A stretch of 64,000 bases of DNA from Oscillospiraceae bacterium (GTDB taxonomy: Bacteria > Bacillota > Clostridia > Oscillospirales > Oscillospiraceae), in assembly GCA_017455685.1 (NCBI GenBank), contig JAFSZH010000021.1, forward strand, positions 1 to 64,000, read 5' to 3'. A model generated the notes under the pieces. The model had not been told where the DNA came from. It ran no database searches and saw only the letters and a program-made list of their open reading frames with translations. The translations under genes were made by a program, and so were the position numbers. Within the stretch, counting starts at the first letter, position 1, and every line of letters starts with the position of its first letter. This document shows positions 852 through 3,746 of the stretch, in pieces.

Positions 852-1937
852 TTATCTGTCCCGGTTCCGGCTCTTCCGGGAGGTAAGGGCGCGGACCATC
901 GCCGTGCCCAGCACGGCGGCGGTGAGGAAAAACGCTCCCGCCGCCACGGCCAGGACCTTGACCAGATAGCGCAGCTCCTCATTTTCTTCCCGGAGCTGCT
1001 CCAGCTCCCCATTGGATGCCGGCGTGGGCGACGGGGTGGGTTTCGCCGTCGGGGAGGCCGTGGGCGACGGGGTGGGCGACGCGGTGGGGGCGGCCGAGGG
1101 CGAAGCGGAGGGGGACGCGTCCGGGCTCTCGTCAGGCTCGGGCGCGGGCGTTTCCGTGGGAGCGGGCGCTGCGCTCCGGACAGGGGCCGCGCTCGCAGGC
1201 GCGGTCTCAGCCGCCAGCCGGGTCACGGCGAGGGTATAAACCTTTTGTGCTCCGTTCCCGGCGGTGACGGTGACGGTCACAGTATTCATCCCCACGTTCA
1301 GCCAGTCGTTGCCCCGGACGACGTAGGACGCGGCCTCGTCGCTCTTCACAGGCGTTACCGCCAGCCACCCGGCGCTGTTGGGTACCGTCACGGAATAGTC
1401 GGTGACAGCAGAGGAAAAGGCAGGCGACAGGGCCCCCGGATCGATATACAGCGCCGCCAGGTCACAGTTGGAGGAGGCGGCGGTGATCGTCACCACGGAG
1501 CTGTGGCTCATATACTCCACGCTCATCTCGTCACCCCCCGCGTCGCTGGCCGAGCAGGCCGTGGGCCGGACGGAGGCGGAGCCCTGGTTCAGAGCGGTAA
1601 AGGTCAGGTTCAGAGAGAAGCGTCCCTCCCCGCTGCCGCAGTAATCCACGATATGCAGCGAGCCCGTCCCCGGCTGGACGGCGGTGTTGCCCAGACCTCC
1701 GGACCAGCCGGTGTAGTTCAGCCGGTCGGTATCGTAGACCAGCGTCAGGTCGATGCCTGCCACCGCCGCCGTAGAATATACGTTTACGGTGACGCTTCCG
1801 CCCACCAGCACGGAGGGGTCGGAGAACATGATGTCCGTACCCGCCGCGCTCGCCCTGCTGCCGGGACCGCCGGACAGCAAGGTCAGCACGAGAATCCAGA
1901 GAGCAAGCCGCAGAATCATGTCATGCCGTTTCTTCAT
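852..1937 (-). CDS. Membrane-anchored cohesin-domain protein
   Basis: 361 residues, started by ATG with AAGGAGG upstream. Order of parts: signal peptide (about 1-32); cohesin-like domain (about 34-152, with GGSVTVNVYS and DLTLVYDTDRLNY); cadherin-like beta-sandwich (about 158-240, ending KVYTLAVTR); a long Pro/Ser/Thr/Ala linker with SPTPSPT-type repeats (about 243-308); a short heptad stretch LEQLREENEELRYL; and a C-terminal membrane helix followed by SRKSRNRDR. The protein should display a cohesin outside the cell on a stalk. The gene lies 12 bp downstream of a dockerin-bearing glucosaminidase, so it is the natural receptor for that enzyme. Cohesin is read from pattern, not from a profile search; the pairing is inferred from adjacency. 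Confidence 0.8.
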   Translation of the reverse strand: MKKRHDMILRLALWILVLTLLSGGPGSRASAAGTDIMFSDPSVLVGGSVTVNVYSTAAVAGIDLTLVYDTDRLNYTGWSGGLGNTAVQPGTGSLHIVDYCGSGEGRFSLNLTFTALNQGSASVRPTACSASDAGGDEMSVEYMSHSSVVTITAASSNCDLAALYIDPGALSPAFSSAVTDYSVTVPNSAGWLAVTPVKSDEAASYVVRGNDWLNVGMNTVTVTVTAGNGAQKVYTLAVTRLAAETAPASAAPVRSAAPAPTETPAPEPDESPDASPSASPSAAPTASPTPSPTASPTAKPTPSPTPASNGELEQLREENEELRYLVKVLAVAAGAFFLTAAVLGTAMVRALTSRKSRNRDR

Positions 1938-1949
1938 TTCTATTCCTCC

Positions 1950-3746
1950 TTACTCCGGCAGGGTGCCGGCGCCGAGAAGATAGTTCCGGATACGGATGAG
2001 ATCGTTGATCTGTACCGTGCCGTTCCGGTCCGCGTCCGCCGAGCGAAGGGCGTTCCCCGTCAGCGGCGCCGTGCCGATGAGGTGATTCCGGAGCCGGATG
2101 AGGTCGTTGATCATCACTTTCCCATCCCCGTTCACGTCCCCGATGCGGATCGCCGGGGCGGGGGTCGGCGTCGGCGACGGGCTGGGCGTGGGAGCCGTCA
2201 CCGGCTCCACTACCACCGGTTCGTCCGTGGGCAGCGGCTCGCTCCCGTCGGGACGGACGATATGGACGGTATAAACCGCCGCGGCTCCGTTCTCTGCCGT
2301 CACGGTGACAGCCACGACGTTGTCTCCGGGCGCGAGGGCGATCTCTCCTCCGCCGCTGACCCGGGCCCCGCCGTAGGCCGCCCGGGCGTCCAGTTGAAGG
2401 GACCCGGTTTCCGGGGAGACGATGACGGTGTATTCCGTCACGTCCCGGTGGAATTCCGGCGCCATGGTCCCCGCACTGACGGTCAGTGAGCCGAGCTTGG
2501 CGTTGGGCGAGCCGTCGCCCCCCGGCAGGGGGCTGGGCTGGGACGGCATGCCGGTATAAACCGGGATGCTGAAAACCAGCGGCAGGGCGCGCATGCTCTC
2601 GGAATAGGCCCGTGAGAGAAGCTGTCCCTCACTCTTTGCCCCGGCCACGTTGGTCATGTACTGGTTGCGGTACATGTTCGCGCCCTGGACGTTGAAGCGC
2701 TTGAGATACAGCGTCGTCTGTCCGGCGTTTACGTAGTTGAGGGCGTAAAACTCCGCGCCGCCCGCGATGGCCCTGGCCAGAGTGGTCCAGGGCCGGCCAT
2801 AAGAGGTGCCCGCCCCGTTGCTGCCGCCGGCGGCGTACCAGAGCCCCCGCTCCACGGCGGAGAAGCCCGGCGTCTTGTAGGCCCCGATGTTGAAGGCATT
2901 GTACACCCCCGGGAACCGGGGATTCGTGCCGGTGATGCTCTGGGAGTTCCCCGCCGCACCCATTTCCTGGATCATCATGGCCGCCAGAACGTAAGGGTTG
3001 ACGCCGCAGGTCTGTCCGGCCTGAAAAAGGGTCTCTGTCAGGGTGTCGACGCCGTTGGAGGCGTCCTGATCCGCGTCATAGTCCTCCCGGCCCAGGAAAG
3101 TCCCGGCCGTCACGGAAGCCATGCCCTCCATGGTCTGGGTCTCCGCGTCGAAGCACTGGTCCAGGAACTGGAAAACGCTGCTGCTGTCCAGGGAGTTGCG
3201 GGGATCCATGTAGTAGGCGACGATCTCTCCGGAGGCTGCCACCCAGCCGCCGCTGTCCAGCTCGTTCCAGGTGCTGGTGGTCCAGTTATAGGCCCCGTCC
3301 TGGGTGGATTTCCAGGAAGAGACGGCGCTGCCCCATACCAGGCTGCGGCCCAGGACTGTTTCCTCCGCCACGGCGGAGGACCAGTCCGCTCCGGGAGTGA
3401 ACGGGCGGAAGCGCCAGCTGGGATAACTCTCGTGGAGAGTGCACAGAGGCGCTATGTAGGATTCCGGGAAGCCTGCCGCCCGCAGCGACGCTGCGAAGTC
3501 CTCCGCCTCGGTCGGCTCGTCGGCTGGTTCGGTCGGTACGGGATCGGGGGGCGTTTCCCCGGCCGCAGGCTCGGCGGTCGGAGTCTCCGGAGACACCGTG
3601 GGCTCCGGCGTCCCGGTAGGCGCGGCCGTGGCGTCGACGACAACGGCAACGTCTTCGCTGACGCCGGAGGCCAGCGCCCTGTCGGGGGCGAGCAGCGCCA
3701 GACACAGCAGCATCGCCGCGATCCGCCCGCTGTATTTCCGATGCAT
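1950..3746 (-). CDS. Dockerin-bearing N-acetylglucosaminidase (peptidoglycan hydrolase)
   Basis: 598 residues from the ATG at 3746 (AAAGGAGG eight bases upstream); an earlier in-frame ATG at 3785 has no ribosome site. Signal peptide about 1-26 (ending RALA), then a Pro/Thr/Glu-rich linker, then a catalytic domain of the clostridial glucosaminidase type. The segment AAMMIQEMGA carries the likely catalytic Glu, followed by GTNPRFPGVYNAFNIGA. Next is a cadherin-like sandwich (about 405-495) like the one in the neighbouring cohesin protein, a Pro-rich linker, and a C-terminal type I dockerin. Its two calcium loops, DVNGDGKVMIND and DADRNGTVQIND, are each followed by a helix LIRxRNxLxG. Predicted role: cleaving cell-wall glycan while docked on the adjacent cohesin. 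Confidence 0.88.
   Translation of the reverse strand: MHRKYSGRIAAMLLCLALLAPDRALASGVSEDVAVVVDATAAPTGTPEPTVSPETPTAEPAAGETPPDPVPTEPADEPTEAEDFAASLRAAGFPESYIAPLCTLHESYPSWRFRPFTPGADWSSAVAEETVLGRSLVWGSAVSSWKSTQDGAYNWTTSTWNELDSGGWVAASGEIVAYYMDPRNSLDSSSVFQFLDQCFDAETQTMEGMASVTAGTFLGREDYDADQDASNGVDTLTETLFQAGQTCGVNPYVLAAMMIQEMGAAGNSQSITGTNPRFPGVYNAFNIGAYKTPGFSAVERGLWYAAGGSNGAGTSYGRPWTTLARAIAGGAEFYALNYVNAGQTTLYLKRFNVQGANMYRNQYMTNVAGAKSEGQLLSRAYSESMRALPLVFSIPVYTGMPSQPSPLPGGDGSPNAKLGSLTVSAGTMAPEFHRDVTEYTVIVSPETGSLQLDARAAYGGARVSGGGEIALAPGDNVVAVTVTAENGAAAVYTVHIVRPDGSEPLPTDEPVVVEPVTAPTPSPSPTPTPAPAIRIGDVNGDGKVMINDLIRLRNHLIGTAPLTGNALRSADADRNGTVQINDLIRIRNYLLGAGTLPE

Follow-up and report, generated by a model that had tools for sequence, protein, structure and literature searches.

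A dockerin-bearing, GH73-like glucosaminidase and its neighbouring membrane cohesin protein as a probable two-part tether

In a 64,000-nucleotide stretch of DNA from an Oscillospiraceae bacterium (GenBank assembly GCA_017455685.1, contig JAFSZH010000021.1, positions 1 to 64,000; hereafter the window), two adjacent genes encode a predicted secreted peptidoglycan glucosaminidase with a dockerin (the hydrolase) and a predicted membrane-anchored protein with a cohesin domain (the partner). Both lie on the minus strand, with the hydrolase gene upstream. We regard it as probable that the pair is a dedicated two-part tether, in which the dockerin of the hydrolase sits in the cohesin of its neighbour and holds wall cutting close to the membrane. 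The first-pass annotation had described a dockerin glucosaminidase followed 12 bp on by a cohesin-like membrane protein, each with a cadherin-like domain; the open reading frames (ORFs), the domains and the gap confirm this arrangement, and PF12733 was found in each protein. The features of the pair are as follows.

1950..3746, minus: GH73-like glucosaminidase, predicted secreted, with cadherin-like domain and dockerin; 598 amino acids, ATG at 3746 (ORF, Pfam PF12733 and PF00404, PDB matches)
3666..3746, minus: signal peptide of the hydrolase, approximate (read from the sequence by eye)
2538..3491, minus: catalytic region of the hydrolase, residues about 86-403 (PDB matches; conserved block in alignment A1)
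2964..2966, minus: Glu261 codon of the hydrolase (alignment to 4pi7, A1)
2253..2489, minus: cadherin-like domain of the hydrolase, PF12733 (Pfam and genome scan)
1974..2141, minus: type I dockerin of the hydrolase, two repeats (Pfam, genome scan, repeat comparison)
1938..1949, minus: 12-bp intergenic gap with GGAGG (sequence)
852..1937, minus: cohesin-cadherin partner, predicted membrane-anchored, 361 amino acids (ORF, Pfam, profile matches)
1842..1937, minus: signal peptide of the partner, approximate (read from the sequence by eye)
1479..1844, minus: cohesin domain of the partner (family profile A3, predicted fold; Pfam PF00963 below cut-off)
1218..1427, minus: cadherin-like domain of the partner, PF12733 (Pfam and genome scan)
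1008..1211, minus: Pro/Ser/Thr-rich linker of the partner (sequence)
894..956, minus: C-terminal hydrophobic helix of the partner, then a basic tail, as membrane anchor (read from the sequence by eye)

The dockerin scores 37.2 bits (whole protein) and 43.6 bits (domain) against PF00404, above the cut-off of 22.9, and its predicted structure has the dockerin fold. Dockerin calcium loops have Asp or Asn at positions 1, 3 and 5 and Asp at position 12, and these residues are present in both loops of the hydrolase, DVNGDGKVMIND and DADRNGTVQIND; the earlier description of two intact loops is thus borne out. The recognition segments of the two repeats match (INDLIRLRN and INDLIRIRN). In 45 distinct dockerins, the identity between repeats at the recognition positions, which were chosen from general knowledge of dockerins, is 0.81 inside one protein and 0.35 when partners are shuffled (0/5000), while at the loop positions it is 0.40 against 0.36 (62/5000). 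Repeats matched at their recognition positions would be expected if both must fit one partner, as in the dual binding mode described for cellulosomal dockerins (PMC4728124). A block of at least 70 residues separates the cadherin-like domain from the dockerin in 30 of 34 hydrolases; the spacing is shorter in the window hydrolase (32) and at loci L184, L195 and L126.

The window's genome (1.89 Mb) is only 72% complete. As far as it is assembled, a scan for further dockerin proteins, suggested by the first-pass annotation, returned one dockerin, that of the hydrolase. The cohesin family profile A3 has one match, the partner, even at E up to 1, and PF00963 has none at 0.001. The two cadherin-like domains in the genome are both in this pair. 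A scaffold with several cohesins was not found there, and the combination that defines a cellulosome, a scaffoldin with several cohesins together with several dockerin enzymes, is absent from this 72% complete assembly. In a dockerin census of 26 genomes selected by us, the hydrolase was likewise the sole dockerin protein found in G008, G060, G432, G156, G174, G212, G275 and G430; G432 (Pseudoflavonifractor sp. An44) is probably the same genome as G060, because the coordinates are identical. G430 is R. bicirculans; strain 80/3 has no dockerin other than that of the hydrolase, and a single cohesin above the cut-off (53.1 bits), encoded by the divergent neighbour, while a second cohesin match lies below the cut-off at 21.6 bits. 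In R. inulinivorans (G429) the one dockerin is in a 71-amino-acid frame that overlaps the hydrolase end. Many dockerins occur in R. albus KH2T6 (60), G078 (29) and G269 (17), and none in four of the 26 genomes.

The pair recurs widely. PF00404 is present in 114 of the best 120 of 3195 hydrolase relatives. Among 394 genomes of the order, 29 of the 30 best hydrolase loci carry a dockerin; a cohesin match occurs in 115 of the 394, and these include all 29 dockerin-hydrolase genomes, the window's among them (hypergeometric 1.9e-17, uncorrected for relatedness). This count took the 30 best loci, and further genomes with catalytic matches lie outside it (for example G335, G330, G107, G178 and G396). 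Twenty of the 29 dockerin hydrolases adjoin a cohesin gene, and another, that of G238, ends at a contig edge. We also compared 80 named loci, 40 with a dockerin on the hydrolase and 40 without a detected one. At 36 of the 40 dockerin-bearing loci a cohesin gene stands beside the hydrolase, 30 times downstream (at L139 with one gene between) and six times divergent upstream, in a Ruminococcus group. One locus with the pair, L147, is from a metagenome-assembled genome (MAG) titled Muribaculaceae (Bacteroidota); it is nested among Lachnospiraceae in the catalytic-domain tree and is therefore probably a binning error.

Covariation between the two proteins also points to docking. Over 40 of 46 pairs (six were dropped, having no or a short catalytic, cadherin or cohesin part), the recognition residues of the dockerin follow the neighbouring cohesin with a partial correlation of 0.22 (1/2000) after catalytic and cadherin distances are removed, a modest effect in a permutation of distance matrices, which is a liberal test. 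The corresponding values are 0.07 (417/2000) for the recognition residues and the partner's cadherin domain and 0.09 (232/2000) for the other dockerin residues and the cohesin. Furthermore, a tandem of dockerin and cohesin, read through the intervening stop, was predicted with a predicted local distance difference test (pLDDT) score of 89.6 and a predicted template modelling (pTM) score of 0.74 (37 rows, 16 with both domains), whereas a control tandem of the same dockerin and its own cadherin-like domain, joined by a linker of about 32 residues, gave 90.4 and 0.52 (34 rows); pTM does not score the interface, and the tandems were predicted from different alignments. Confident domains with a low pTM suggest no fixed arrangement, and the value of 0.74 therefore suggests docking, as support rather than proof.

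The partner domain misses the PF00963 cut-off, with 14.1-15.7 bits against 24.1, and this shortfall belongs with the adverse points collected below. The HMM (hidden Markov model) check proposed in the first-pass annotation thus came out positive for the dockerin and, with the Pfam model, below the cut-off for the cohesin, while structure prediction, also proposed there, gave a cohesin fold for the partner domain. In a Pfam scan PF00963 was found in 42 of 104 partner homologues and in none of the best 40. The six divergent upstream cohesin genes are beyond the reach of the A3 profile, and a full-length Pfam scan of these low-complexity partners found nothing at E up to 0.01 in five of the six, the other being L140 with 36.7 bits. 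N-terminal pieces of L140, L142, L146 and L168 pass the cut-off (39.2, 32.4, 52.9 and 32.5 bits); those of L138 and L150 fall below it, and their assignment as cohesins rests on similarity to L146. The cohesin protein of R. bicirculans (L146:5709-7256), divergent from the dockerin hydrolase, is missed in full length, yet its N-terminal piece reaches 52.9 bits; low-complexity tails can therefore hide cohesins in annotation. In searches for the partner, matches to Pro/Ser/Thr linkers and to the circumsporozoite protein were set aside as composition artefacts. The hydrolase had been called wall-tethered, and in this respect the description has to be changed: the partner looks membrane-anchored, with one hydrophobic helix by reading, and neither a wall-anchoring signal nor an LPxTG motif was seen in it by eye. 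Pfam gave no CAAX-protease-like match in the partner.

The catalytic region of the hydrolase matches solved glucosaminidases (5wqw, 2.4e-8; 6fxo, 3.8e-8; 4pi7, 3.8e-5) and, weakly, chain 6u0o_B (E 1.8e-4), which we take to be SagB. Glu261 aligns with a Glu of the autolysin 4pi7 and, in a stretch below threshold, with a Glu of 5wqw; it is invariant across the 29 sequences of alignment A1 and is presumably the catalytic Glu of GH73. PF01832, which we take to be the Pfam glucosaminidase model, had no match at E up to 1 in the Pfam scan, and the NCBIfam SagB model matches weakly (31 bits against 425). For these two reasons we call the hydrolase GH73-like. With sequence matches to solved members and the catalytic Glu in place, we assign it to GH73 in this sense, as a predicted peptidoglycan glucosaminidase.

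Between the stop codon of the hydrolase and the ATG of the partner lie 12 bp containing GGAGG, which fits separate, possibly coupled, translation of the two genes. The gene upstream of the pair (window:3938-5650, minus strand) encodes a leucine-rich-repeat protein (PF12799) with an N-terminal hydrophobic stretch by reading. Downstream, the edge-cut minus-strand reading at window:1-628 suggests a membrane protein of the SPFH/band-7 type.

If the tether works as we propose, the hydrolase would be secreted as a predicted peptidoglycan glucosaminidase, and its dockerin would plug into the cohesin of the partner at the membrane; this binding would depend on calcium and could take either of two orientations. 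The Pro/Ser/Thr-rich linker of the partner is a possible spacer through the wall and would let the enzyme reach a limited depth. The target would be the cell's own wall, and the purpose, by analogy with SagB and SpdC of Staphylococcus aureus, might be to trim newly made glycan strands close to the membrane. Both proteins have a cadherin-like domain, and these two domains may form a second contact between them, which would explain why relatives without a dockerin keep the pair.

These relatives are among several observations that weigh against the tether. Thirty of the 40 hydrolases without a detected dockerin, mostly from Lachnospiraceae, adjoin the same cohesin-cadherin protein (the other neighbours are cadherin-only in three and none in seven); cohesin and dockerin therefore cannot alone tie the proteins together across the family. 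The absence of a dockerin was called with the A1 dockerin profile at E up to 0.01 and by eye at 22 C-terminal ends. In 18 of these the protein ends no more than three residues from the cadherin-like domain, in three it continues for another 44-57 residues, and in one the cadherin-like domain gave no match. If the pair bound only by cohesin and dockerin, the cohesin would be expected to decay where the dockerin is absent. Such decay was not found: the cohesin domains beside dockerin-less hydrolases are no less cohesin-like (median 7.4 bits without and 6.4 bits with a dockerin, independent cohesin profile, p 0.29). At E up to 0.1, PF00963 was found in 14 of 32 partners without a dockerin (best E 5.1e-5) and in 16 of 32 with one (best E 9.6e-11), sets that include three and two partners, respectively, in which A3 detects no cohesin. 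Among the four census genomes with a dockerin-less hydrolase, Anaerocolumna MB42-C2, Catonella morbi and Mobilitalea sibirica have no dockerin at all, and G428 has two, elsewhere in the genome. Conversely, eight of the 29 dockerin hydrolases have no cohesin within the 1.5-kb flanks read, and of the 40 dockerin loci two (L166 and L187) have no cohesin neighbour and two (L134 and L157) a neighbour in which only the cadherin-like domain was detected. Within the genus the pair is patchy: two of nine genomes, some of them incomplete, match the catalytic domain (G000 and G008), and G001, G005 and G007 keep a partner-like protein without a catalytic match. Matching between repeats extends to dockerin positions 3, 9 and 20, which belong to neither the recognition nor the loop set. 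The catalytic-domain tree (81 rows) requires six changes of dockerin state, at least three by its starred branches. Midpoint rooting puts the dockerin-bearing rows on deep branches and would for this reason favour dockerin loss, but only under that rooting; the root was drawn for display.

One alternative is that the proteins are joined mainly by their cadherin-like domains, cohesin and dockerin being a lineage-specific addition or a relic. PF12733 is present in both proteins of the window, in all 32 partners of the dockerin group (window included) and in 29 of 32 of the dockerin-less group, and the pair persists where the dockerin is absent. After removal of catalytic and cohesin distances the two cadherin-like domains covary in both groups (0.26, 16/2000, with a dockerin; 0.40, 0/2000, without, four of 30 pairs having been dropped from the latter). 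Where there is no dockerin, the hydrolase's cadherin-like domain further covaries with the cohesin of the partner (0.25, 7/2000); where there is one, it does not (0.04, 614/2000). However, cadherin covariation could also arise if similar sequences recombine, or through shared descent, which such controls do not fully remove, because catalytic and cohesin distances stay strongly correlated when cadherin distance is taken out (0.46 and 0.65, 0/2000), a point that itself tells against the tether. The cadherin-like domains are thus a plausible second contact, for which recombination or incompletely removed descent could give the same signal. A relic, moreover, would not keep its recognition residues matched and tracking the cohesin more than the cadherin domains, and no cadherin-like match was found in the Ruminococcus-type partners L140, L142, L146 and L168, which have PF00963 in their N-terminal pieces, nor in L212. 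We consider this alternative rather less probable than the tether.

A second alternative, unlikely in our judgement, makes the cohesin protein a surface dock of general use, which would serve several dockerin proteins and have the hydrolase among its cargos. Such a role would suit L139, where two dockerin enzymes precede one cohesin gene, and the subtilases, the polysaccharide deacetylase, the VgrG3-like protein and others with dockerins that adjoin cohesin-cadherin genes elsewhere. Against it, the window's genome and seven other distinct genomes of the 26 have a single dockerin, on the hydrolase, although in the window's case a second could be missing because the assembly is 72% complete. The resemblance could also be coincidental, the partner domain being a generic beta-sandwich and the dockerin having another calcium-dependent role. 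The sub-threshold Pfam cohesin score, the lack of PF00963 in the 40 closest partner homologues and the cohesin-like domain kept by dockerin-less relatives would agree with this, and we give it very little credence. The interpretation in the first-pass annotation is partly supported. The predicted fold, the dockerin model, the single dockerin, the matched repeats and the covariation speak for its cohesin-dockerin pairing, which the Pfam cohesin model alone does not confirm; its wall tethering gives way to a predicted membrane anchor, and the dockerin-less relatives show that the pairing cannot be the tie throughout the family.

Other cargos were found beside related cohesin genes. At L139, in a Lachnospiraceae MAG from water-buffalo rumen, a GH73-dockerin gene, a D-Ala-D-Ala carboxypeptidase-dockerin gene and a cohesin gene stand in a row, the carboxypeptidase (PF00768, L139:9682-11088) adding another wall enzyme to the putative operon, which we also count in favour of the tether. 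Subtilase-Big_3-dockerin proteins of 2971 and 2400 amino acids (L202:2712-11624 and L203:2126-9325; see also L063 and L077) are each encoded directly upstream of a cohesin-cadherin-cadherin gene. At L205:2652-5153, a dockerin protein that also has a ricin-B lectin domain and, at its C-terminus, a VgrG3-like domain adjoins a cohesin-cadherin gene, as do, in other genomes, a divergent polysaccharide deacetylase with a dockerin and others. Because such different dockerin proteins adjoin it, the cohesin protein looks like a reusable dock, most often beside the wall hydrolase in the loci read, which were largely chosen through the hydrolase. In some proteins both modules may be combined. L110 / L211:1663-5181 and L091:1123-2550, which adjoin the same system, have an A3 cohesin match and a dockerin, Pfam confirming the dockerins only, and are possible adaptor or chain-forming forms; a 1173-amino-acid protein of G315 has catalytic, cadherin-like, weak cohesin and dockerin matches, of which Pfam again confirms the dockerin only. 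More tentatively, and with doubts outweighing confidence, the membrane cohesin might be a wall-remodelling scaffold across many gut Bacillota, independent of fibre digestion and maybe as old as, or older than, the cellulosome. Its cargos would then be the GH73 glucosaminidase, in one lineage also a D,D-carboxypeptidase, and elsewhere perhaps a deacetylase.

If the tether is real, a recurring one-to-one pair would give cohesin and dockerin a role in the cell's own envelope; it would hint at the way in which a lytic enzyme is positioned or held back in some gut Bacillota, and natural orthogonal pairs would become available. The pair is testable in R. bicirculans, with its only dockerin beside its only above-cut-off cohesin, and in Pseudoflavonifractor sp. 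An44. Some relatives kept the partner although they lost the dockerin or never had it, and they raise the question of what joins the two proteins there.

Research on cohesin and dockerin has dealt almost entirely with their part in holding together cellulosomes and similar polymer-degrading complexes, and no description of the present gene pair was found in the open-access literature, to which our search was mostly confined. The type I pairs of the cellulosome, as in Clostridium thermocellum CipA, have the same two folds and a two-repeat dockerin with matching recognition residues; unlike there, one cohesin and one cargo stand here side by side, and the cargo is a predicted wall glucosaminidase. 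Clostridium perfringens NagJ is a secreted glycoside hydrolase that acts on host glycans and itself carries the cohesin, and this and other non-cellulosomal cohesins differ from the partner in not being on a membrane anchor for a wall enzyme. RflaF_05439 of Ruminococcus flavefaciens (NlpC/P60 modules, X-dockerin) is, like our hydrolase, a predicted wall-type enzyme with a dockerin, in this case a peptidase, and is stated on the basis of unpublished results to bind the cell-surface ScaE cohesin; it belongs to a large cellulosome system and to another enzyme class, and the accessible sections describe no dedicated neighbouring cohesin gene (PMC3573020). GH73 is listed among R. albus enzymes in a table, the part of that paper at hand (PMC4081043). 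Christensenellales dockerin genes in cockroach-gut single-cell genomes were assigned to K06381, stage II sporulation protein, according to an excerpt (PMC10266427), and are perhaps another dockerin on a peptidoglycan enzyme. Scaffoldins such as those of Lachnoclostridium sp. MSJ-17 resemble the partner in their single cohesin and C-terminal membrane helix; they differ in being counted, with other scaffoldins, as possible docks for up to 39 dockerin proteins, and the text available describes neither a one-to-one neighbour nor a wall hydrolase (PMC11557425). In S. aureus the membrane protein SpdC scaffolds the glucosaminidase SagB, which shortens glycan strands. SpdC is an integral CAAX-protease homologue, SagB is itself membrane-associated, and no cohesin or dockerin is described in the portion of the source available (PMC10581084); by analogy of function only, SagB-SpdC resembles the present pair as a glucosaminidase scaffolded by a membrane partner.

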